A stretch of DNA of 41,603 bases, taken from contig CAKZPH010000147.1 of assembly GCA_937138605.1 (NCBI GenBank), positions 1 to 41,603 on the forward strand. The letters are read 5' to 3'. The notes under the pieces were generated by a model, which was given only the letters and a program-made list of their open reading frames with translations, was not told the origin of the DNA and did no database searches. Position 1 is the first letter of the stretch, and every line of letters starts with the position of its first letter. This document shows positions 10,603-29,589 of this stretch, one piece after another. The stretch is from an uncultured Ignavibacteriales bacterium. GTDB lineage: Bacteria; Bacteroidota; Ignavibacteria; Ch128b. The position numbers and the translations under genes were made by a program.

Positions 10603-12591
10603 TTATCTTAGAATGGTTAATTTTTTGGTAACGTTGTAGTCTTGCGATAAAAATCGATAAAAATAAACTCCACTAGAAAGCACCCGTCCAGTGTCATCCG
10701 TTCCATCCCAAACAAACTCGTGGTTATTCCCTCTACTTACACCCACATCTTTCAATAGTGTCTTCACTTTTCTTCCAAGGACATCATAAATTTCGAGTGT
10801 AATCCATTGCTGAGTAGGTAAATCAAATCTAAACCTGGTTATACCATTAAATGGATTCGGGTAATTCTGATACAATACAAAATCTCTAACAACGTTTAAA
10901 CTCTTTCTAGGTGCAAAAACTTTTTTAGATAATAAATGGAATGAATAGTTTAACTCACTTTTTTCAGGAATTCTCACCGTACGCGTTGGTGTATGATAAG
11001 TAAAATAAAACTTGTATACATCATCTTCATTTAGTTCATTTGGTAGTTTTACTTCAAACTTAAAATTATTACCTAAATCTAACAGTTCAATTTCTTTATA
11101 GATACTATTATCCTCAGAAAAAATAACAACGTTTAATTTGTTTATTGTCTGATTTTCGAAGATCGTTTTAAGCAAATAGTAACCATCATTTCGTTTCACA
11201 ATTAAAGGAAAAGACAACGCTTCTTTTGCACGAGCTATTCCCCAACCATAAACAGTATCAGGTTTATCAGATTGACTTGCTGTTAATCGAATCGCATCCC
11301 TTACTTGATATTGATTGATTTCTGAATAATGAGAAATTAAAAGTCCTACAATTCCAGCTACTATTGGTGTTGAAGCAGAAGTACCCGATGCATAACTATA
11401 AGATGCAAAACCATTAGTTGTTGCCGTGTAAACAGACATTCCCATAGCACAAACATCAGGTTTAATTCTTCCATCACTAGTGGGACCACGCGAAGAAAAA
11501 GGCGCTATAATTGACGAAGACGAAACTGCCCCAACAGCTAGCACATAACGAGCATCCGCAGGAGAAACAATATATTTCCAAGGACTCATAAATTCATTTC
11601 CAGCTGCTGTTACTGTAACAACACCACGAACAAATGCTGAATCAACTGCCCTGGCAACAATTGTAGTTGAACCGTTCATGTCTTGATATGTGTAGCTTTC
11701 ATTTGGATCATCAAACTCACTATAGCCTAGTGAGCTACTTGTCACATCAACTCCTTGTTGTTCCATCCAAATTAATGCTCTAGCATAATTATCCTCTTCA
11801 ACACGCCTTTCACTTCTGATATCTTCGGTTTTTGCAAGAATATAATTTGCGTCATAAGCAACACCAATAAGACGACCATCTTTTTTCCCTGCAACTATAC
11901 TCATAATCTGAGTTCCATGAGCATCCTGTCCTGCTACATCACCTGGTTGATTAGCTGTAATGGAATCACCAAATATAAAATCATATTCAGCGATAACTTT
12001 GGTACTCATTAAAGCTTCATGAGTTTTCCAGCGAAAACCTGTATCAAGTAATCCAATCAAAACATTTTCGCCTCTTATTCCCCGTGAGTGAACCTCAGGA
12101 ATTTGAGAAAGATTATTTTGATCAAAAGATGGTCCATAATTATTCGTTAATTTGTTTAATTCAAATAATGGAGCAATTGATTCGTCTCTATATGATGACT
12201 TAAAAACTTTTACTTTTTCCACTTTTTCCACAAAAGGCAGACTTGAAATTAATTGTTTTTGATTTTCATCCAAATAAGCAGATACTGCATTAAACCATGT
12301 TAATTCGTGAACGATTTGCACATTTAACTCTTTTAAGTTATCGATGTAAGGTTTGTAAATAAAATAATCGCCGTAAGAAAAAATTTCATTACCTAAAGCT
12401 TTCTTTCTTCTTTCAATTGCCTTATTAGAAAAAGTTTTTAAGAGTTCAGCTTCAATGATTTCTTTTTTGAAATATTTTTTATCACTTTCGCCTTTGTCTT
12501 TGAAATAAATAAGATACTTTGTTTGGGTAAAAGCAACTACAGGCAATAATAAAAAGAGGACATTAAAAATAATTTTCAAGTAAAATTTCAT
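10603..12591 (-). CDS. Secreted subtilisin-like S8 serine protease with T9SS type A-like C-terminal sorting domain
   Basis: Signal peptide; triad motifs LLDTGFRW (D), DAHGTQIMSIVAG (H), SGTSASTPIVAG (S); TAAGNE oxyanion; C-terminus LYQNYPNPFNGITRFRFDLP...EIYDVLGRKVKTL...SSGVYFYRF...VTKKLTIL. Confidence 0.93.
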   Translation of the reverse strand: MKFYLKIIFNVLFLLLPVVAFTQTKYLIYFKDKGESDKKYFKKEIIEAELLKTFSNKAIERRKKALGNEIFSYGDYFIYKPYIDNLKELNVQIVHELTWFNAVSAYLDENQKQLISSLPFVEKVEKVKVFKSSYRDESIAPLFELNKLTNNYGPSFDQNNLSQIPEVHSRGIRGENVLIGLLDTGFRWKTHEALMSTKVIAEYDFIFGDSITANQPGDVAGQDAHGTQIMSIVAGKKDGRLIGVAYDANYILAKTEDIRSERRVEEDNYARALIWMEQQGVDVTSSSLGYSEFDDPNESYTYQDMNGSTTIVARAVDSAFVRGVVTVTAAGNEFMSPWKYIVSPADARYVLAVGAVSSSSIIAPFSSRGPTSDGRIKPDVCAMGMSVYTATTNGFASYSYASGTSASTPIVAGIVGLLISHYSEINQYQVRDAIRLTASQSDKPDTVYGWGIARAKEALSFPLIVKRNDGYYLLKTIFENQTINKLNVVIFSEDNSIYKEIELLDLGNNFKFEVKLPNELNEDDVYKFYFTYHTPTRTVRIPEKSELNYSFHLLSKKVFAPRKSLNVVRDFVLYQNYPNPFNGITRFRFDLPTQQWITLEIYDVLGRKVKTLLKDVGVSRGNNHEFVWDGTDDTGRVLSSGVYFYRFLSQDYNVTKKLTILR

Positions 12592-19005: not shown

Positions 19006-19305
19006 ATGATAGCAGTATTTTTGTTCTACATTCATTTGATTTTTGGTTTATATGTATTTACAAAAAGATGGCAGGAAGAAGGTCTAAGTGCAGCTTTTCT
19101 AATACTAATATTTGTGGGAATTATTTTTTCAGTTGGATGGACACTTTCTTACTTGATTGCGTCATTAATTTTTCCGACCGAAGGTTTAGGAAAATTTTAT
19201 AATCGTGATACAATTTCACTTACAATAGTCACCATTTTTGAATATTTCTTTTACAATAATTACTTCAGGGGAAAATTAAAAAAAGAAAAAGCGCCTCTAT
19301 TATAA
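19006..19305 (+). CDS. Hypothetical small membrane protein
   Basis: 99-aa hydrophobic ORF collinear with the two preceding membrane-protein genes; ends 1 bp from the convergent tonB-like stop. Confidence 0.6.
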   Translation: MIAVFLFYIHLIFGLYVFTKRWQEEGLSAAFLILIFVGIIFSVGWTLSYLIASLIFPTEGLGKFYNRDTISLTIVTIFEYFFYNNYFRGKLKKEKAPLL

Positions 19306-19306
19306 A

Positions 19307-19984
19307 TTACTCAAGCCTGTATGGTATAGTGATAATAACCTGCTGTTCAAATTGAATTTGGTTTGGTCTTAAAGACTCAAATTTCCATGTCTTAAGTGCT
19401 TGAATAGCAGCATCTTCAAGTTGAGTGTCCGCTTTAATTAAAGGAATGGGTGAAACTACTGAACCATCAGGTAAAATTGTAAATTTAATTTTGATGTCTA
19501 TTTCTTTCTGAACACCCGGAGGAAATTTGGGTTTCTCCCATCTTAAAATTTTTCTCGTTCCACGACCACCCCAATCAAAGCTATATCCACTGGAACCAAT
19601 GGGCGATTCACCTGCTGGATTTTTTGAAATGTTATTACTCAAATTTTCTGATTGATTTACTCGTTCGAATTTCTCCTTTTTCTTTTCCTGCTGTTCTTTT
19701 TTCTTTAAGATTTCATCAAATTCTTGTTTTACTCTGGGTTTTTCAATGTTATCCTCTTTTTTCTCAATAGATTCATTTTTATCATCTATGGCTTTTTCCT
19801 TTTGAGCAATAAGAGGATCTGAACCCGGCTTACCACTTCCCGGTGCTCCAAAATCAATTGTGACGTATTCGGGTACTACCGGTAATGTTCCAAGTGTAAT
19901 AAAAGAAAATATTATCAATAGAATTACATGAAGAAAAGAAGAAGCAATATATGTGAATCTAAGATCTGTAAAAAATCTTTTCAT
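19307..19984 (-). CDS. TonB/TolA-like energy transducer
   Basis: N-terminal TM anchor, charged Lys/Glu linker, C-terminal TonB fold (IKFTILPDGSVVSPIPLIKADTQLEDAAIQALKTWKFESLRPNQ); follows ExbB/ExbD genes. Confidence 0.9.
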   Translation of the reverse strand: MKRFFTDLRFTYIASSFLHVILLIIFSFITLGTLPVVPEYVTIDFGAPGSGKPGSDPLIAQKEKAIDDKNESIEKKEDNIEKPRVKQEFDEILKKKEQQEKKKEKFERVNQSENLSNNISKNPAGESPIGSSGYSFDWGGRGTRKILRWEKPKFPPGVQKEIDIKIKFTILPDGSVVSPIPLIKADTQLEDAAIQALKTWKFESLRPNQIQFEQQVIITIPYRLE

Positions 19985-20382
19985 AGCGTTTCTTTTTCGG
20001 TCGCAATTGTAAACTTATTAACCCCCGTTCCTTTTGCAATATCTATTACTTTTATCAATATATCTATTGATACTTCTTTATCAGCTTTAATGACTAAATT
20101 TTTATCAAGCTGATTTTTTTGCTGTAAAATTTTTTCACCAAGTTCAGCAAGACTTATCTTATCACTACCGAAATAAATATCATTTGTTTTAGTAATTGTT
20201 ACAATAAACTGATTTTCATTTACAGTATCTGAAGTTTCAGATTTTGGAAGTTTAACCTGTACACCCGTTGTAATTACAAATTGAGAAGTCAGCAAGAAGA
20301 AGATGAGCAAAAGCATCACTATATCTGTTAATGAAGAATAATTAAAAGCGGTGAGCAATTTTCTCTCTGATTCAAACTTCAT
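19981..20382 (-). CDS. ExbD/TolR family biopolymer transport protein
   Basis: MKFESERKLLTAFNYSSLTDIVMLLLIFFLLTSQFVITTGVQVKLPKS, conserved TM Asp. The ORF track starts at 20421; the ATG at 20382 matches the family N-terminus. Confidence 0.92.
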   Translation of the reverse strand: MKFESERKLLTAFNYSSLTDIVMLLLIFFLLTSQFVITTGVQVKLPKSETSDTVNENQFIVTITKTNDIYFGSDKISLAELGEKILQQKNQLDKNLVIKADKEVSIDILIKVIDIAKGTGVNKFTIATEKETL

Positions 20383-21010
20383 GTTTAACTCTACCAAATT
20401 CTTTTTCGTAAAGTACATCAATGAAATCTGTAGAAGTAATTTCCATTTCAGATATAAGTTTATTTATGCGTGTTACAAAATAATTATAGAATAGATAGGC
20501 AATTATTCCTACTGACAAACCAAAAGCAGTAGTAATTAACGCTTCCCAAATTCCACCGGCAAGATCACTAGGCGAAGCATTTCCACCGAGGGTTTCTATT
20601 TTGATAAAAGCGGAGATCATTCCCGTTACCGTTCCGAGAAATCCTAAAAGCGGAGCTACACCTGAGATGGTTGCGAGAATTGAAAGACCCTTTTCCAATT
20701 TATAAATTTCCTGTTTACCAGCACTTTCAATCGATTCTTTAATTCTTTCCATTCCAAAGTGATACTTTGTGAGTCCTTTACGAACAATATTGGCAATTGG
20801 TGAGTTAAATTCAGAACAGTAGTTGATCGCTTCGACAATGTCACCTTTCTTCATGTGTTGACGAATCTGAATCATAAATCGTGGAACGTTTACAGATGCT
20901 TGTCTTAATATAAAGTATCTTTCGATAACAATTGCGAAAGTTATTACCGAACATAAAAGAATGGGCCACATAAGCAGCCCTCCTTTCAAGAAACCAGAAA
21001 GTAAATCCAT
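20372..21010 (-). CDS. ExbB/TolQ/MotA family proton channel
   Basis: GGLLMWPILLCSVITFAIVIERYFILR, ISGVAPLLGFLGTVTGMISAF, GGIWEALITTAFGLSVGIIAYLFYNYF. Confidence 0.95.
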   Translation of the reverse strand: MDLLSGFLKGGLLMWPILLCSVITFAIVIERYFILRQASVNVPRFMIQIRQHMKKGDIVEAINYCSEFNSPIANIVRKGLTKYHFGMERIKESIESAGKQEIYKLEKGLSILATISGVAPLLGFLGTVTGMISAFIKIETLGGNASPSDLAGGIWEALITTAFGLSVGIIAYLFYNYFVTRINKLISEMEITSTDFIDVLYEKEFGRVKHEV

Positions 21011-21025
21011 ATATATTTCCTATTT

Positions 21026-22417
21026 CTATTTCCTGTTTACGTAAATATCTTCTCGTTTTAGTAACAATCTTAAATTGTGGTAATCTTTCTCCAAGTCAGT
21101 TTCATTTAAGTAATAGCCAACTTTAACACGATACATCAAACCAAATTCTGGGACGTTTGCCGATTCAACGAATGATCGATATCCTTTGTTCCTCAAATTT
21201 CTTGCAAATGAAAGGGCAAACTTTTCATCTTTTGTGGAACTTACCTGTATGTAAAAGTCGCCTTGAGCTTGTGCTTTCCTAGTAGAAGCAACTCTTTCTT
21301 TTACGACTTTACGCTTAATAGGCGTTTTTTTAGGTTCAACTGTTGAAATTAATTTAGACGTAGTTGTGGTTTCTTTTTTAGTCAAATCCTGGCTCTTAGT
21401 TGCTTTCTCTTCAACTTTTTCAGTTTCCGGTTGTTCTATAATCATACCTCGCTTTTCTTTTAACTCGCTTTCAGATGGTGTTTGGGCAAATTCATCAGGA
21501 GCAATTATAATCTTTTTTTGATCTGGACTTACTGGACGTTTTTCAACTACTACTGGTGGTGCAGTTTCTTTTTTTCTTTCAATCACCGGTTCTTTTTTTA
21601 TTTGTGTTACATCAGTGCTTAATGCCCAATATATTCCAACGCCAATAATTCCAAGAAACAGTAAAACTAAAGTGATCCACAAAGCTGGTGATCCTTCTCG
21701 TCTAATTAAATCTGAACTTGTCATCGAAGATAAATTCGGTGGAGGTGTATAAGACCCAGATCCAACTGATCCGGATGTTAAATCTTCCCCAAATGTAAAT
21801 TTAGGTTTTTCAGTGCCTTTATCTGGCATTTTTGTTACCTCCTCGTTTTTAGTTGTAAAATCTTTTTCAGAAATTTTTAATTCTTCTAATAACCCCTTTT
21901 CAGCATCTTTTTCAGTTGAATCTATGGATGACAAAATCTCCTCACCTATGCTCAACTCGTCTGATACTTCCCCCTCGAAATCGAAAAGTCCAACTTTTTC
22001 TTCTTCCAGGGAAATTTCCTCAGGACCCATCTCTGCTTCGGTAACTCTCTCTTTTTCCATCTCAGGTGAGATAATAGAAATTTTCTTTTCTATTTCTCTT
22101 TCTGAGCCTGGTTTCAAAATCTTAGGTTCTTCAGCAGCGTATTTAATATTTATTTCTTTAGCTAATTTTGATGAAGGTGAAAATCTTACAGTAAATTTCT
22201 CTGGTATTTCAATCTCTTTACCAAGAAGGGCACTATATCTCTTTGTAGCTTTAGTAATTTTGGGTAGAAAGGTTCCAAAATTCGATAAAAATACTTTTTC
22301 ACCATCTCTAAGTGCAACAATAATATGCTCAATAAGTTTTTGAAAAACTAATTCTACCTCTTTAATACTGGCACCTGTTTTTGTACTTACTTTTTCAATG
22401 AATTCAATCTTGTTCAT
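21026..22417 (-). CDS. Membrane-anchored HU-like domain protein with C-terminal SPOR domain
   Basis: aa 1-92 HU fold (MNKIEFIEKVSTKTGASIKEVELVFQKLIEHI...FGTFLPKITKATKRYSALLGKEIEIPEKFTVRFSPSSKLAKEIN); acidic linker; one TM (ALWITLVLLFLGIIGVGIYWAL); C-terminal SPOR (FYIQVSSTKDEKFALSFARNLRNKGYRSFVES...YRVKVGYYLNE). Confidence 0.88.
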   Translation of the reverse strand: MNKIEFIEKVSTKTGASIKEVELVFQKLIEHIIVALRDGEKVFLSNFGTFLPKITKATKRYSALLGKEIEIPEKFTVRFSPSSKLAKEINIKYAAEEPKILKPGSEREIEKKISIISPEMEKERVTEAEMGPEEISLEEEKVGLFDFEGEVSDELSIGEEILSSIDSTEKDAEKGLLEELKISEKDFTTKNEEVTKMPDKGTEKPKFTFGEDLTSGSVGSGSYTPPPNLSSMTSSDLIRREGSPALWITLVLLFLGIIGVGIYWALSTDVTQIKKEPVIERKKETAPPVVVEKRPVSPDQKKIIIAPDEFAQTPSESELKEKRGMIIEQPETEKVEEKATKSQDLTKKETTTTSKLISTVEPKKTPIKRKVVKERVASTRKAQAQGDFYIQVSSTKDEKFALSFARNLRNKGYRSFVESANVPEFGLMYRVKVGYYLNETDLEKDYHNLRLLLKREDIYVNRK

Positions 22418-22686
22418 TCTTCAGTCTTAAAAATATTTTTAGATGGTTTGAAAATAAAAACCTCCTTAGGAGGTAATAACACTAAGTCACCAGTTTGAGG
22501 ATTAATGCCACGCTTCTCTTTTTTAAATTTTCTTTCAAACTTACCAAAATTATTAAATGTAATTGAACCATCTACTTTAACAACTTCGATTATCGTATCG
22601 AGTATACATTCAATTATTTCCTCAACTTTCTTCTGAGTAAGGTTGGTCTCGCTAGAAATAATTTTTTTTAAATCATCTTTTGTCAT
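22414..22686 (-). CDS. HU-family DNA-binding protein
   Basis: 90 aa: ITFNNFGKFERKFKKEKRGINPQTGDLVLLPPKEVFIFKPSKNIF, canonical HU beta-arm with NPQTG. Confidence 0.93.
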   Translation of the reverse strand: MTKDDLKKIISSETNLTQKKVEEIIECILDTIIEVVKVDGSITFNNFGKFERKFKKEKRGINPQTGDLVLLPPKEVFIFKPSKNIFKTEE

Positions 22687-24293
22687 TAAAACCTCAACTT
22701 TAAAATTAACTCAAAATCAAAAGGTCTTTGTAAATAATTAAACCATCGTTCGTTATTTTTGTTCAATATATTGTTTAGTCCAAGTTCCAAATCAATTAAA
22801 TCAGAAATCATATAATTAAAACCAATGCTCAAATTCAGTGTCGGGTCAATACTAATTTGATTGTTTATATCTGCATAACTACGTGAATAATACAAAAAAC
22901 TTAATCTTAAATAAAGTGGAAATTCAAATTTATACGTATAAGTTAAGTTTAGATTTAGGTTTGGTGTGTGAGGTGTATTTTTCGTGTTATCCTTGAGTTT
23001 TGAAGAGATATAATTAATATTCAAAATGAAATTACCTGACTTGTTTAAATCAATAAAGAGACTTGTATTCAAGTCTAATACTTCAACATTACGTTTTACT
23101 ATATTAAAAAATCCCTGCACAGAATTTTTGGGAATAAAAATATTTTTACCCGCCACATCATAACGAGCAAATTCCAATTTTATGTTACTTAAATGGGTAA
23201 AATATATTATTGTGCTAAACCCAAATTTATTTTTTATTCTTTCAATTGAATAATTGTAATTAACTGTATCTAAATAAGGATTTATTTTCCAAAGTTGTGA
23301 AGGTGTGTAGTTTAACAATTTGTTTGAATAAAACAGTGAAAGTGACCAGTAATCACTTAATCCAATACCAAGACTTGCACTTGGAGCTAAAAATTGCTTA
23401 CCATCATCTCTTTCAGATTGATAATCCAGGCCAATAATAATGTTTATAATTTTAAGTAACCGTCTTAAATACATTTCTCCATTGGCATTTAAAATTAAGG
23501 TATTGAATGTTTTCCAAGTTGACCTTTTATAGAGATATGGATTTACGTTTGCAGTTATTTCAAAATGTTCAAATGTCGATTTTAACTTTCCATAAGGTGA
23601 AAAAGTAAAGAATGAAAATCCACTTCTACTTAAACTTTGATATTCAATTTGCCCACCCAAAGATAAGTTGAATTCTCTCCAAAAAAGATTCTCAAATTCA
23701 GATTTAATTTGAAATTTAGAATTAACTTCTTTTCCAACTGAATCAGGATTCAATGCCTTGAAGTTATAATAACTGAATCGAGTAAAATCAGTTCGTAACT
23801 TTAAACGGGCTGGTGGTTCTCCTTCTTTTTCAATTATTAACGAACCTAATGCATTTAAATTTAATAACGAATGCCTTGAATACTTTACATAATCACGAAT
23901 GTTTTCAAAATCTCCACCAAAATTAATATCAACCGAACTTATCTTTCCAGAATAGAAAACTTCGGTTTTTGGTAATGAATACAAACCAGCAACCAATTTA
24001 GCCCTAGCATAATATTTTTTTGAAGTATCTAATATTGATGGTTGTAATTTTGTTGGGTCTGTTAAACCTTCAAGTTTTAAATCCTCTACTCCTATTCGAG
24101 ATAAAATAAATTCTGGAGATAATGGAGTAATTAATTCTGGAGTTGCCTTTTCTTGAACAGGCACATCAACTTGAGCTTGACCTGTTATAACAAAATCAGG
24201 AAGCTCTATTTCTGGAATTCTGGATCTAACGGTATCTTGTTGTGTGAATAATACTGAAAATAAAACTAAGTGTAAGACTAAAACCTTTTTCAT
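22686..24293 (-). CDS. Predicted outer-membrane beta-barrel protein with N-terminal TonB-box-like segment
   Basis: Signal peptide, IPEIELPDFVITGQAQVDVP, then many amphipathic beta strands ending with aromatic ...FDFELILKLRF. Confidence 0.72.
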   Translation of the reverse strand: MKKVLVLHLVLFSVLFTQQDTVRSRIPEIELPDFVITGQAQVDVPVQEKATPELITPLSPEFILSRIGVEDLKLEGLTDPTKLQPSILDTSKKYYARAKLVAGLYSLPKTEVFYSGKISSVDINFGGDFENIRDYVKYSRHSLLNLNALGSLIIEKEGEPPARLKLRTDFTRFSYYNFKALNPDSVGKEVNSKFQIKSEFENLFWREFNLSLGGQIEYQSLSRSGFSFFTFSPYGKLKSTFEHFEITANVNPYLYKRSTWKTFNTLILNANGEMYLRRLLKIINIIIGLDYQSERDDGKQFLAPSASLGIGLSDYWSLSLFYSNKLLNYTPSQLWKINPYLDTVNYNYSIERIKNKFGFSTIIYFTHLSNIKLEFARYDVAGKNIFIPKNSVQGFFNIVKRNVEVLDLNTSLFIDLNKSGNFILNINYISSKLKDNTKNTPHTPNLNLNLTYTYKFEFPLYLRLSFLYYSRSYADINNQISIDPTLNLSIGFNYMISDLIDLELGLNNILNKNNERWFNYLQRPFDFELILKLRF

Positions 24294-27262
24294 CTTAAAC
24301 GCCTCAGCCTATTTTTTGCTTCTTTACCAAGTTGACCACTCGAATCCAACTTAATAACTTCATTATAGAATTCTCTCGCTTTCACCTTGTTTTTCAAAGC
24401 TTCATAACTTTCAGCAATTTTGAAAAAGCCCTTTATTAACCAATCAGTGTGTCCAGCAAAAGCATATCTTAATTTCAAAAATTCTGAAATAGCGTCGTTA
24501 TATTTTTTTTGTCTAAAATAAATTTCACCGATAAGATATTGACCTTCTGCACCAAATTCATCATTACGTAGTTCAACCACCTTCTTAAAATAATTAATTG
24601 CTGAATCAGGTCTAACTTCCCTTTCCAATTTTCCAATTTCAAATAAAGCTCGGGAATAAAAACCCGACTCTTGATATGTTTTAATTATTTTATCGAATAT
24701 AATTTTTGCTTGAGCTACTTCACCTTGTTCTAAATGACTTTTTGCTAACCAATAATTTGCTTCCGCCACTAAATTTGATTGTGAATAATTGTTTATGAGC
24801 GATTGATAACTCTTAATAGCAGCATCTAAATCCCCTTTCAAACGAAAAATATTTCCCGTTTCCAGAATGGCATCGTCTGTTAACTCATCTCCAGAATAAT
24901 TTCGAATAACTATTGAAAGATTATAAAGTGCATCATCATACGATTTAAGTTGAATGAATGCTTTGGCAATTGAATAATATGCAATGGTTACTAATGAACT
25001 TGTCGGGAAGAAAGAGATAAACTCACGATAACTTGCAATAGCTTCTTGAAATCTTCTCTGAGATAAATACAGATCTCCTTTTTTAATTAAAAGCCTGTCC
25101 AGGTTTTTAACATTTGGATTGGAGTATACAAATTTTGTAATAGCATCAGCAGCCTCTTCAATCTTACCTTGAGAAACATACGCATATTGAATACCATTTA
25201 TTGCATCAATTACAAAATCTGAATTAGGATAATCCCTTAAAACAATATTATAGTTTTCAATTGCTTTATCATATTTACCTTGATTAAAATATGCATCACC
25301 AATTGAATAATAGACTAAGGGTATAATCGGGGACATAGAATGATTTACTATGACTTTTTGATAATCTTCTATACTTGAATCGTACTTACCTAATTTAAAT
25401 TTAATCCAACCAATTAAGTATTGAACTTCATCAGCGTATTTTGAGAAAGGATACTTTCTTAAGAGCTCCATTAATTCGTGGATTGCTCCATCTAAATTTC
25501 CAGCACGATATAATGCCTGAGCTAATTGATACGAAACATAATCACTTGACTTTGCTTCTGGATCCGAAAAATAACTCCTATAAATCTCAATAGCCATTTT
25601 AAAGTTTTTCAACCCGTAATAAGCATCAGCAAGACGCAACTTTACCTCATTTAATAAAGGAGAATAAGTAAATTTCTCTAAAAACTGTTGAGCATATTTT
25701 ACTACGTTCGAATAGTCTTTTCTATTAAAATTCGAATATATAATTCCATACAAAGATAATTCTTTAAGGTCGTCATCCTGAGTTGTCTTTATAACCTGCT
25801 CATAGTTTTTTATGGCCTCACTATACTTGTTTTGAGCAAATAAACATTCGGCAAGATAAAATCTTACTTTGTCTATTTCTCCCGGATTTTTAAGCGTTAA
25901 AATTCTATTCAAAACTGAAGTAGCTACTACGAAGTTGTTCAAGTAATAATTTGCAGTTGCAAGTCCAAGAAGAGCTAAGGTATAATGATTGTTATTTTCA
26001 TTAAGGAGACTAATAGCAATTTCATAGTGAGTTTTCGCCAAGGCAAAATTTTTTCTTTCAAGAGCAATTGCACCAAGAACAATGTTTGAATTCGATTTAA
26101 TCGTGTCATCCGTAGAATCTTCTAATAAGCTCAATAAATAACTTTCAGCAACTTGAAATCTCTTTAATTCAAAATAAATGATTCCAATTTGATATTTTGC
26201 ATGAGTAGAATATATGTGATCAGGATATTTTTCAATATATGATTTGAATTCTTCAATGGCTTGGATATTTTGACTCATATTTCTACTGATGTAACCAAGC
26301 CAATAGCTTGATCTTTCAGCTAATGAATCATTGCCTAAACTTAAATCCTTTAATATTCGATGAGTTTGTTCGAACCTATTTTGTTGATAAAATGACCATG
26401 CTAAACCATATTTAGATGGTCTCACCATTTTTGAATTAGGAAATCTATTAATAACATTTTGAAATTCAACTTGAGCGTCGTAAAATCTCCCCAATTTATA
26501 ATAACTATTAGCAAGAATATAGTAAGCCTCTGCAAGGTCTAGATTTGAGAGTTGTTTGATTTTTGGATCTGTTAATCTTTGAACTGCTCTTTGGTAATTA
26601 CCTAGATTATAATATGTGAACGCTACTCGTACCAACGCCATTGGAGTAATTTGAGATTCAGGAAATTCATTTAAAAGCTTATCATAGTAAATTTCGGCTC
26701 TGTCGTAAAGTTTTTTTTGTTCATAAACGAAACCTAAAGAAAAAAGAGTATGATCAATTTTTGAATTTGTTTTGGAATTATTTAATGCTTCCAGATAACA
26801 TCTTTCTGCAGCAACAATATCGTTTAATGCCATATAAACTTCACCAAGCCAATAGTAAGCAAGTCCATAATATTTACTGAAAGTCAGCTCATTGATAAAT
26901 TTTTGTAAGTAATTTTTAGCGACATTATAGTTCCCAGCTTTATGATTAATTTGACCTAAACGAAGAAGAGCTAAATCATAATTTCTATCATGTGGAAATT
27001 TGATTCGATAATTTTCAAATTCAAGATTTGCCTCGAAAAATTCATTCTGTCTAAACTTAATTTCACCTAGAAGAAAATGTATTTGTGCCCGATTCTCTAT
27101 AGAGAAGGATTCATCATTTTTTAACTCTTCCAAAATTTTATATGCTTCACTAAGATGACCTCGAGTATAAAGGTTTATCGCTCTTTCGTATAGGTCAAAT
27201 CTAACTTGAGAGTATGATGGTAAAAAAATTAACAGAAGTAATAATACAATTAGGCGTTTCAT
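24290..27262 (-). CDS. Large TPR-repeat protein with signal peptide
   Basis: MKRLIVLLLLLIFLPSYSQ signal followed by continuous TPRs (e.g. YYSIGDAYFNQGKYDKAIENYNIVLRDYPNS). Confidence 0.9.
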   Translation of the reverse strand: MKRLIVLLLLLIFLPSYSQVRFDLYERAINLYTRGHLSEAYKILEELKNDESFSIENRAQIHFLLGEIKFRQNEFFEANLEFENYRIKFPHDRNYDLALLRLGQINHKAGNYNVAKNYLQKFINELTFSKYYGLAYYWLGEVYMALNDIVAAERCYLEALNNSKTNSKIDHTLFSLGFVYEQKKLYDRAEIYYDKLLNEFPESQITPMALVRVAFTYYNLGNYQRAVQRLTDPKIKQLSNLDLAEAYYILANSYYKLGRFYDAQVEFQNVINRFPNSKMVRPSKYGLAWSFYQQNRFEQTHRILKDLSLGNDSLAERSSYWLGYISRNMSQNIQAIEEFKSYIEKYPDHIYSTHAKYQIGIIYFELKRFQVAESYLLSLLEDSTDDTIKSNSNIVLGAIALERKNFALAKTHYEIAISLLNENNNHYTLALLGLATANYYLNNFVVATSVLNRILTLKNPGEIDKVRFYLAECLFAQNKYSEAIKNYEQVIKTTQDDDLKELSLYGIIYSNFNRKDYSNVVKYAQQFLEKFTYSPLLNEVKLRLADAYYGLKNFKMAIEIYRSYFSDPEAKSSDYVSYQLAQALYRAGNLDGAIHELMELLRKYPFSKYADEVQYLIGWIKFKLGKYDSSIEDYQKVIVNHSMSPIIPLVYYSIGDAYFNQGKYDKAIENYNIVLRDYPNSDFVIDAINGIQYAYVSQGKIEEAADAITKFVYSNPNVKNLDRLLIKKGDLYLSQRRFQEAIASYREFISFFPTSSLVTIAYYSIAKAFIQLKSYDDALYNLSIVIRNYSGDELTDDAILETGNIFRLKGDLDAAIKSYQSLINNYSQSNLVAEANYWLAKSHLEQGEVAQAKIIFDKIIKTYQESGFYSRALFEIGKLEREVRPDSAINYFKKVVELRNDEFGAEGQYLIGEIYFRQKKYNDAISEFLKLRYAFAGHTDWLIKGFFKIAESYEALKNKVKAREFYNEVIKLDSSGQLGKEAKNRLRRLR

Positions 27263-28737
27263 AAAATCAAAAATAGAAAATAGATTTTACTAAGTAAAAG
27301 AACTGATGAGAAGTTCACAAAATCGTTATTAATAAACGTCAATCCTTTATAATATTCAGTTGAAGAGTCACAATGAATTAATTTCTCCGTCATTTTCCAG
27401 CATTTTTTACAGCGATAAGTCACCTGAAGTGTTGCACCAAGAAAACTATCGAACAAATTTCCTAAAGTTGCAAAGATGTTGATAATAATAAGATCACTTA
27501 TAAGAAACTGATGAAAAAGCATTGCACAAAAAGTAATGGTAATTGATCCCAGCAACCCACCCAAAGTACCAACTAACGAAATTCCACCAGAAATACCTGC
27601 CTCAACCCGAGCGAAATTTGTGATTAAAAAGATGTTCTTAGCGAAAAGAGTTCCAATTTCTGTTGACCATGTGTCAGCCATTGCGATAGCAATGGAGAGG
27701 ATATAAATGAAATACCAGTTTGTTAAATCAGGAAAAAGATAATTCAATAAGCTAATCATCAAAGGAACGCCACCATTAGCAAGAACTTGAAACATATCAC
27801 GCTTACTTCCTTTATTAAAAACGTCATTTAATTCTTTACTTCGATAAAACTCGCTGAATTTAGAAAGAACAGAAGATAAAATAAAAAATGTTAAAATCGG
27901 TATTGTCCACGTCCAGCTTCCCAAACCAAAAATGAACAAGGCAAGAATAAAGGTTACAAACGATCCACTTAAAGAAAGCAATTTATATTTCAATGATATC
28001 AATGAAATTAAAAAGGCAAGAAAAGAAGCTAATAAGAAATTAGGGAGATCAATTCCTTTATGAAAAAATATAAACCCTATGAAGGCTAAAACTACAGGTA
28101 AGTAAAGATTATCTGTGCCTTTTGAACTTAATGCCTCGACTATTCCTGCAATAATTGAAGTCATAAGAGCAAGAAATAAAAAACTTAAAAAATCATACTT
28201 AATAAAATTCAAATAATCATAGAACGTATACCTCAGGAAAATCAGTACTAGTAAACTCGAAATAATTGTGGCAAATAAACCATTAAAAGTTTTAGGTTCA
28301 CCGTGTATTTTAAGATAACGTTTAATTTTTGCACCTGTACCAACTAATCCAGCGGCAGCATCGCTAATCGAAAAAATAAAAAAGCTAAAGGCAAGAATAT
28401 ATTTGTTTACATTCCAGAAAATCAGAACAATAATCAAAAAAGCAAGAGGATAATAAAAAATTCCCAAATGAGTTGTCAGATTACCGTCAATTTGTTTTAA
28501 TATTTTTCTTTTGATTAAAATGTAATTTAATAATGAAAAAACAAGTCCAATAAAAACCATAATTCCGAAAGAATTGATCAAAAAAGTTGCAAGTATAACA
28601 ACAAACCCGGTTGTTATATGAAGAGTTTTTCTAGCTACTATTTTAGAAATAACCTCTTTTCTAGCTAAGAATTCCAACAAAACAATTAGAAGAATAGTAA
28701 TACCAGAGAGAATTAATAAATTAGTATATTCCTTCAT
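27259..28737 (-). CDS. Fused phytol/dolichol kinase-like (VTE5/SEC59-type) and DUF92 (VTE6/TMEM19-type) integral membrane protein
   Basis: N half: LLEFLARKEVISKIVARKTLHITTGFVVIL...ISDAAAGLVGTGAKI...EPKTFNGLFATIISSL...IIAGIVEALSSKGTDNLYLPVV. C half: GLGSWTWTIPILTFFILSSVLSKF...QVLANGGVP...IAMADTWSTEIGTLFAK...GISGGISLVGTLGGLLGS. Confidence 0.82.
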   Translation of the reverse strand: MKEYTNLLILSGITILLIVLLEFLARKEVISKIVARKTLHITTGFVVILATFLINSFGIMVFIGLVFSLLNYILIKRKILKQIDGNLTTHLGIFYYPLAFLIIVLIFWNVNKYILAFSFFIFSISDAAAGLVGTGAKIKRYLKIHGEPKTFNGLFATIISSLLVLIFLRYTFYDYLNFIKYDFLSFLFLALMTSIIAGIVEALSSKGTDNLYLPVVLAFIGFIFFHKGIDLPNFLLASFLAFLISLISLKYKLLSLSGSFVTFILALFIFGLGSWTWTIPILTFFILSSVLSKFSEFYRSKELNDVFNKGSKRDMFQVLANGGVPLMISLLNYLFPDLTNWYFIYILSIAIAMADTWSTEIGTLFAKNIFLITNFARVEAGISGGISLVGTLGGLLGSITITFCAMLFHQFLISDLIIINIFATLGNLFDSFLGATLQVTYRCKKCWKMTEKLIHCDSSTEYYKGLTFINNDFVNFSSVLLLSKIYFLFLIL

Positions 28738-28798
28738 AAATTTTTAGAAAATAACTTGCCTTATTGATAATAACAAATAAAAGCATCTAAAACTGAAA

Positions 28799-28817
28799 CC
28801 GCCTCTTTTCGAGGCGG
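28799..28817 (-). terminator. Rho-independent-type terminator downstream of the TPR gene 28828-29589
   Basis: Minus strand CCGCCTC-GAAAA-GAGGCGG followed by TTTCAGTTTT; GC-rich stem in an AT-rich context. Confidence 0.75.
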
Positions 28818-28827
28818 CTAGAGGATT

Positions 28828-29589
28828 TTATTGTTTAGGGAGGTTCTTCAACTCGTAATCACAAACTTGTCTATAGGTAGGATCCTTCTTACCTTCTTCA
28901 AAGGCAACTTTTGCTTCGCTAAATTTACCTAAAAATTTTAACGCTAAACCTTTATAGTAATATATCCCACCTTTTGGAATAGAACTTCTGTATTTAAGGG
29001 CATTATCAGCTGCAGAAATCGCATCATCGTATTTCCCTTTTTCTATGTATGAACGGGCAAGAGCAAGATAAGCCGCATCATTTTTAGGCTGGTATTTTAA
29101 AGCCTTGTTTAGATTTTCAATTGCTTTATCGTACTCAAAATTTTTAAGATTAATATCAGCAAGTTTTGTGTAAGAGAGCGATATATTTTTCTCAACTTGA
29201 GATTTTAATTGTGCATTTTTTGTCAGTTCAAGAGTTTTAGAAAAGTGATTAATTGCTTCATCATAATTTCCTCGAGTAAATTCAAGTGTACCAAGTGCAT
29301 TGTAAGCCAAATCAAAATCCGGTTTTAATTCAATTACTTGTTTTAAGTCAGAATATGCTTCACTTAATTTATTTTGTTTTCTTAAAGCAATACCTTTTTG
29401 ATAAAGAATACGATAATCTTTTTGTATCTCAAGTGCTTTGTTATATGCTAAAATAGCTGCAGCGATATTTCCTTCTTTTAATTTTTGATTTCCTTCATTA
29501 TAAAACTTTGCTGCATCCGGGTTCATATCTTGAGCAAAAATTACTGTTACAAATAAAAACAATAAAAGATGAGCCTTTATGTATTTCAT
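28828..29589 (-). CDS. TPR-repeat protein with signal peptide
   Basis: MKYIKAHLLLFLFVTVIFAQ signal; repeats such as AYNALGTLEFTRGNYDEAINHFSKTLEL. Confidence 0.88.
   Translation of the reverse strand: MKYIKAHLLLFLFVTVIFAQDMNPDAAKFYNEGNQKLKEGNIAAAILAYNKALEIQKDYRILYQKGIALRKQNKLSEAYSDLKQVIELKPDFDLAYNALGTLEFTRGNYDEAINHFSKTLELTKNAQLKSQVEKNISLSYTKLADINLKNFEYDKAIENLNKALKYQPKNDAAYLALARSYIEKGKYDDAISAADNALKYRSSIPKGGIYYYKGLALKFLGKFSEAKVAFEEGKKDPTYRQVCDYELKNLPKQ

Follow-up and report, generated by a model that had tools for sequence, protein, structure and literature searches.

A conserved TPR-barrel-SPOR-ExbBD-TonB operon as a candidate Tol/Ton-type trans-envelope force transducer in Bacteroidota

We lean towards the view that an operon in the genome of an uncultured Ignavibacteriales bacterium encodes a Tol/Ton-type trans-envelope force transducer, which occurs across most of the Bacteroidota and replaces Tol-Pal at division. 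The operon lies in a window (the whole stretch of DNA analysed, 41,603 nucleotides) corresponding to contig C147 of a 2.57 Mb genome that is about 98% complete. In the proposed mechanism, the TolQR-like ExbB and ExbD would use the proton motive force to move a dedicated TonB-like rod. This rod would pair with an LPDFVITG strand at the flexible periplasmic N-terminus of an outer-membrane barrel, which would take up the force as an anchor in the outer membrane, no transport plug being pulled. An inner-membrane SPOR protein would put the machine on denuded septal peptidoglycan, while a large TPR protein would act as a periplasmic scaffold or bridge in a CpoB-like role. In the cytoplasm, the HU-like domain(s) of the SPOR protein would serve for dimerisation; in this lineage their partner may be a free HU, which may itself contact DNA. 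The outcome would be an outer membrane kept attached to, and invaginating with, the peptidoglycan at division.

A 2025 survey reports that Bacteroidetes have no tol-pal loci and states that other systems stabilising the outer membrane remain to be revealed (PMC12204202). It thereby raises the question of how the outer membrane is attached and constricted without Tol-Pal in the Bacteroidota, a phylum of importance in the gut and in the environment. The locus offers a concrete and widespread candidate with defined parts, in which the TonB-box-like motif, the SxxxH motif and the transmembrane aspartate are amenable to point tests. If the proposal is true, the barrel of a TonB-dependent receptor (TBDT) would have been turned from transport to mechanical anchoring.

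Organisation and conservation of the operon

The preliminary description of this DNA had listed eight open reading frames, all on the minus strand, together with the overlaps between them. An ORF check of the window reproduced their positions, and the junctions agree to the base: DUF92/TPR 4 bp, TPR/barrel 4 bp, barrel/HU 1 bp, HU/HU-SPOR 4 bp, a 15-bp gap before ExbB, ExbD/TonB 4 bp, and ExbB/ExbD 11 bp, the last presuming that ExbD starts at the ATG at 20382. Pfam matches among the operon genes include ExbB, ExbD, TonB_C, HU (twice), SPOR and TPR. A terminator-like hairpin (28797-28819, minus strand; a 9-bp stem with 6 GC pairs and a T-rich tail) stands between the operon and an upstream TPR gene (28828-29589); since the hairpin sets that gene off, the transcription unit probably begins at the DUF92 gene. 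A promoter scan of the locus performed no better than chance level. Convergent with the 3' end of the operon is a gene for a membrane protein of about 100 aa (19006-19305) without a Pfam match; its presence next to the operon is conserved in about seven families.

The first gene (27259-28737, minus strand), previously called a kinase, is a genuine ORF whose Pfam match is to DUF92 only (PF01940, 1.3e-59); the N-terminal half of this membrane protein looks by eye like the dolichol/phytol kinases. At least four families (f1, f10, f12 and f26) have it immediately before the TPR gene, and it is an optional neighbour, not a general member of the operon; the adjacency makes a link with polyprenol or lipid phosphate metabolism possible. 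The second gene (24290-27262, minus strand) encodes a predicted periplasmic protein of about 990 aa matching many TPR families, with a signal peptide and no lipobox seen. In NCBIfam it scores best against TIGR02795 (YbgF/CpoB; 313 bits), a match of the unspecific kind that TPR repeats give.

The gene order TPR (about 990 aa)-barrel-(optional HU)-(HU-)TM-SPOR-ExbB-ExbD-TonB is near-invariant in the Ignavibacteria, and the synteny search called for in the preliminary description found it conserved far beyond close relatives, over dozens of genera. Five genomes of the same family keep the order over the part that their contigs cover, 20 loci from other families of the class read TPR-barrel-(HU-)SPOR-(ExbB-ExbD)-TonB with few gaps, and the same order was found in about 15 families of the class. 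The least biased test took ExbB as the sole bait against named genomes. It gave 80 loci, of which nearly all carry the labels Ignavibacteria, Melioribacteraceae or Ignavibacteriaceae; the isolate Stygiobacter electus is among them. Where enough flanking sequence was available, the barrel and SPOR genes were upstream in 63/63 and the TPR gene in 52/53 loci, with ExbD downstream in 73/74 and TonB in 74/74. A chance arrangement is ruled out by these counts and by the conservation over dozens of genera. The conserved content and order support the earlier proposal that one operon encodes a trans-envelope assembly in which a motor driven by proton motive force is joined to a barrel and to a scaffold of TPR type. 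The divergence of five operon proteins is also correlated (r 0.77-0.93); this was not counted as evidence because shared phylogeny alone would produce it.

A barrel profile matched 309 of 346 genomes sampled from the phylum, some of them weakly. Loci outside the class have the order TPR-barrel-HU-SPOR-ExbB-ExbD, and in several of them the SPOR protein bears Pfam HU-CCDC81 domains (an HU-CCDC81-TM-SPOR form). An independent search with PF18175 matched 126 genomes, none of them listed in family f35 (see below), and comparison of coordinates showed that in at least 34 genomes the match is the immediate 3' neighbour of the barrel gene. Families f16 and f39 have no adjacent ExbBD/TonB genes; in f39 another gene lies between the TPR and barrel genes, and the HU-CCDC81 protein is encoded elsewhere. 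In f16 the TPR and barrel genes are separated by a gene for a small c-type cytochrome that has two CxxCH motifs (L037:12826-13239, with equivalents in L033-L039), and at one locus outside the class a Mur-ligase-type (folC-like) gene follows the motor genes (L125:13467-14759). Searches of the open-access literature on HU-SPOR, CCDC81 and Tol/Ton division systems of Bacteroidetes found no earlier description of the locus, and the complete phylum-wide TPR-barrel-SPOR-motor locus with its plugless, TonB-box-like barrel appears to be new.

The plugless barrel and the motor

The barrel gene (22686-24293, minus strand) has no Pfam match in the window copy. The AF2 model, which is of moderate quality (pLDDT 70, from an alignment of 13 sequences), predicts about 22 strands and a disordered N-terminus, and its top Foldseek matches against the PDB are all TBDTs. 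Among 26 homologues, Pfam found PF00593 in seven and the Plug domain PF07715 in none, and an ordinary TBDT is thus ruled out. The most conserved segment lies just past the signal peptide: LPDFVITG (residues 31-38; 24180-24203, minus strand) has a mean column identity of 0.96, as against 0.42 for the whole barrel and 0.70 for the next best 8-mer. It begins 22-37 residues after the start codon in most barrels and is strict in 57/66, with a near match in 8; the one remaining sequence is truncated at its beginning. A scan of 480,000 ORF residues found the strict pattern in no other place. A plug-bearing TBDT of the same genome (L093) has a similar LEEVVVTG at the corresponding place, and outside the Ignavibacteria the same position holds weaker and less clear E-x-V-x-V-like strands. 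By sequence and position LPDFVITG fits a TonB box, and it is a putative site of TonB contact. The coupling of barrel to motor, as first proposed, is retained with the barrel redefined as a plugless TBDT type whose TonB-box-like N-terminus would give the motor a concrete target.

The motor genes comprise ExbB/TolQ (20372-21010, minus strand; PF01618, 5e-35), ExbD/TolR (19981-20382, minus strand; PF02472, 8e-29) and a TonB-type force transducer (19307-19984, minus strand). ExbB scores closer to TolQ than to ExbB in NCBIfam (tolQ 112 bits, exbB 73 bits), both values being below the equivalog cut-offs. The transmembrane aspartate of ExbD (SLTDIV) is kept in 58/58 sequences, one of which reads SLTDIT, and the S-x3-H transmembrane motif of TonB is likewise kept in 58/58; the motor is therefore expected to be active. 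The C-terminal domain of the transducer is TonB_C, with a match to PF03544 (26 bits) just above the cut-off. The genome encodes a second TonB_C protein, an orphan canonical TonB on contig C243 (L090:1069-1731) without adjacent ExbBD, and the operon TonB is accordingly probably specialised; the operon ExbBD may serve both. The other member of the MotA/ExbB family, of which the genome has two, stands beside an ExbD gene on contig C240 (L003:3-1932), where the gene after the ExbB-ExbD pair encodes a DUF4159 protein that has a TM helix and may be a further transducer driven by proton motive force, distinct from TonB/TolA. With only two such genes in the genome, the operon motor may also power nutrient receptors.

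These observations bear on an alternative in which the operon serves the TonB-dependent uptake of one widespread substrate through a reduced TBDT, the short N-terminus being a mini-plug and the SPOR and HU parts only positioning the barrel. The operon shares with Ton systems ExbB, ExbD and TonB_C, a 22-strand TBDT-type barrel and a TonB-box-like N-terminus, and its ExbBD is the only pair of the genome not associated with DUF4159, in a genome with 19 plug domains. It differs from them in its barrel without a plug (no Plug match in the 26 homologues), in its obligate TPR and SPOR genes, one per locus, and in a host that has a separate canonical TonB; moreover, no substrate-binding lipoprotein is linked to it, and the barrels diverge to a mean pairwise identity of 28% while the motif remains fixed. 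We regard uptake as unlikely. In other systems a TPR protein paired with a barrel exports polysaccharides (PgaA, BcsC, AlgK/AlgE) or lipoproteins (Slam), and the operon gives weak cross-matches to TPR_Slam and BcsC. A TPR-barrel machine driven by TonB/ExbBD and exporting a polysaccharide, lipoprotein or surface protein is nevertheless quite improbable, as the cluster has no conserved synthase or cargo gene and the barrel fold is of the TBDT type and not 16-18-stranded. Exporters of the PgaA, BcsC, AlgK/AlgE and Slam types are not known to have a TonB box or a motor driven by proton motive force. Uptake and export account less well for the SPOR and TPR partners than does a force transducer.

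The SPOR and HU domains

The inner-membrane component is an HU-TM-SPOR fusion (21026-22417, minus strand; PF00216 and PF05036). Its AF2 model places the HU domain at residues 1-93, the TM segment at 244-267 and the SPOR domain (PF05036) at 388-462, in the periplasmic C-terminus of a protein anchored in the inner membrane, and Foldseek of the model finds HU/IHF. SPOR domains are described in PMC6895207 as recognising denuded septal glycan. The genome has five SPOR matches, i.e. four besides that of the operon, and SPOR proteins are not all septal, which counts against the proposed septal placement.

The gene between the barrel and the fusion (22414-22686, minus strand) encodes a free HU protein of 90 aa (PF00216, 2.2e-23) with an intact NPQTG tip on its DNA-binding arm; by alignment with E. 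coli HU/IHF, this lineage keeps the whole NPxTG tip in its free HU. In the fused HU domain, by alignment with HU/IHF, the arm tip is degenerate in the window copy and the arm is wholly deleted in other classes. The separate HU gene is optional, and some families are without any recognisable HU domain. A link to the nucleoid is thus lineage-limited at best. As regards the earlier proposal of an inner-membrane protein contacting both DNA and peptidoglycan, the TM and SPOR parts stand, while contact with DNA becomes doubtful in view of a fused HU arm that is mostly not intact; for the same reason, and with the HU gene optional, a role in chromosome position is also doubtful. Nucleoid contact is the weakest part of the interpretation.

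The architecture of the fusion and the intact tip of the free HU in this lineage would accord with an alternative in which the HU-TM-SPOR protein ties the nucleoid to septal peptidoglycan for partition, the motor and barrel being co-regulated for some other task. Burroughs and colleagues reportedly predicted in 2017 a role in chromosome partition for the bacteroidete HU-CCDC81 proteins. We consider such a tether very unlikely to be the main role, given the degenerate or deleted arm of the fused HU in most lineages and the families in which HU is undetected; as TPR, barrel, SPOR and TonB persist there, HU is the dispensable part. A fuller version of the force-transducer reading, in which the operon is the missing Tol-Pal counterpart of most Bacteroidota, with TonB pulling a plugless barrel where SPOR marks the septum and with an HU heterodimer, in this and some other lineages, also joining the outer membrane to the nucleoid, is put forward tentatively and is itself rather doubtful.

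The HU-CCDC81-SPOR proteins of Bacteroidetes (PF18174/PF18175 and SPOR) share with the operon the HU-like domain(s), the TM segment and the SPOR domain, and fill the same slot 3' of the barrel in other classes. Here, by contrast, the protein is split into a free HU and an HU-TM-SPOR protein with canonical PF00216 HU domains. The HU-CCDC81-SPOR family is known; its TPR, barrel and motor partners are a new context.

Relation to Tol-Pal and PorE

The preliminary description had noted that the window holds neither tolB nor pal, and this extends to the whole genome, about 98% complete, which has no full-length TolB and no Pal; its only protein with an OmpA domain is a fragment of OprF/TSP3 type, situated at the edge of a contig. 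No canonical tolQRAB-pal locus was found elsewhere in the genome, in agreement with the earlier view of the locus as a non-standard Tol. Membership of canonical Tol-Pal is ruled out by the absence of TolB and Pal.

Across the 346 genomes, counted from the listed families, full-length TolB is present in 64/66 genomes of family f35 and 0/280 of the others. Family f35 carries TolA-TolB-Pal-CpoB without the plugless barrel. Its matches to the barrel profile are weak (best 3e-17), partial and several per genome, and were rejected as plugless barrels, three inspected loci all being plug-bearing TBDTs by eye; roughly 228 of the 280 genomes outside f35 have barrel matches stronger than any in f35. This reciprocal distribution within the phylum, which is one phylogenetic contrast between a single family and the rest, suggests functional replacement of Tol-Pal. 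Family f35 presumably represents the Chlorobiaceae or a Chlorobi-like group; Tol-Pal has been reported in Chlorobi (PMC7391070, PMC12204202), and the gene content of f35 fits.

The operon and Tol-Pal (TolQRAB-Pal-CpoB) have in common a motor driven by proton motive force, with the operon ExbB nearest TolQ by score, an S-x3-H transducer, a periplasmic TPR protein, a peptidoglycan-linked part and a single chromosomal operon. They differ in that the operon lacks TolB and Pal, its transducer ends in TonB_C, its outer-membrane partner is a plugless barrel, its peptidoglycan binder is an inner-membrane SPOR protein, and its TPR protein is about 990 aa long and encoded upstream.

PorE, like the operon, has been proposed as a tether between outer membrane and peptidoglycan in Bacteroidetes without Tol-Pal (PMC12204202). 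It differs in being one multi-domain lipoprotein with an OmpA domain. If PorE, as a CpoB-TolB-Pal-like lipoprotein, were the Tol-Pal analogue of Bacteroidetes, as proposed in that survey, the locus would be an auxiliary Ton system. This appears highly improbable, as the operon is present in a host in whose genome no PorE-like OmpA protein was seen, the sole OmpA-domain protein being OprF-like. PorE and the operon could also act together. Elsewhere in the window (10603-12591) lies the gene for a subtilase whose C-terminal sorting domain is that of type IX secretion, and the organism thus probably has a T9SS.
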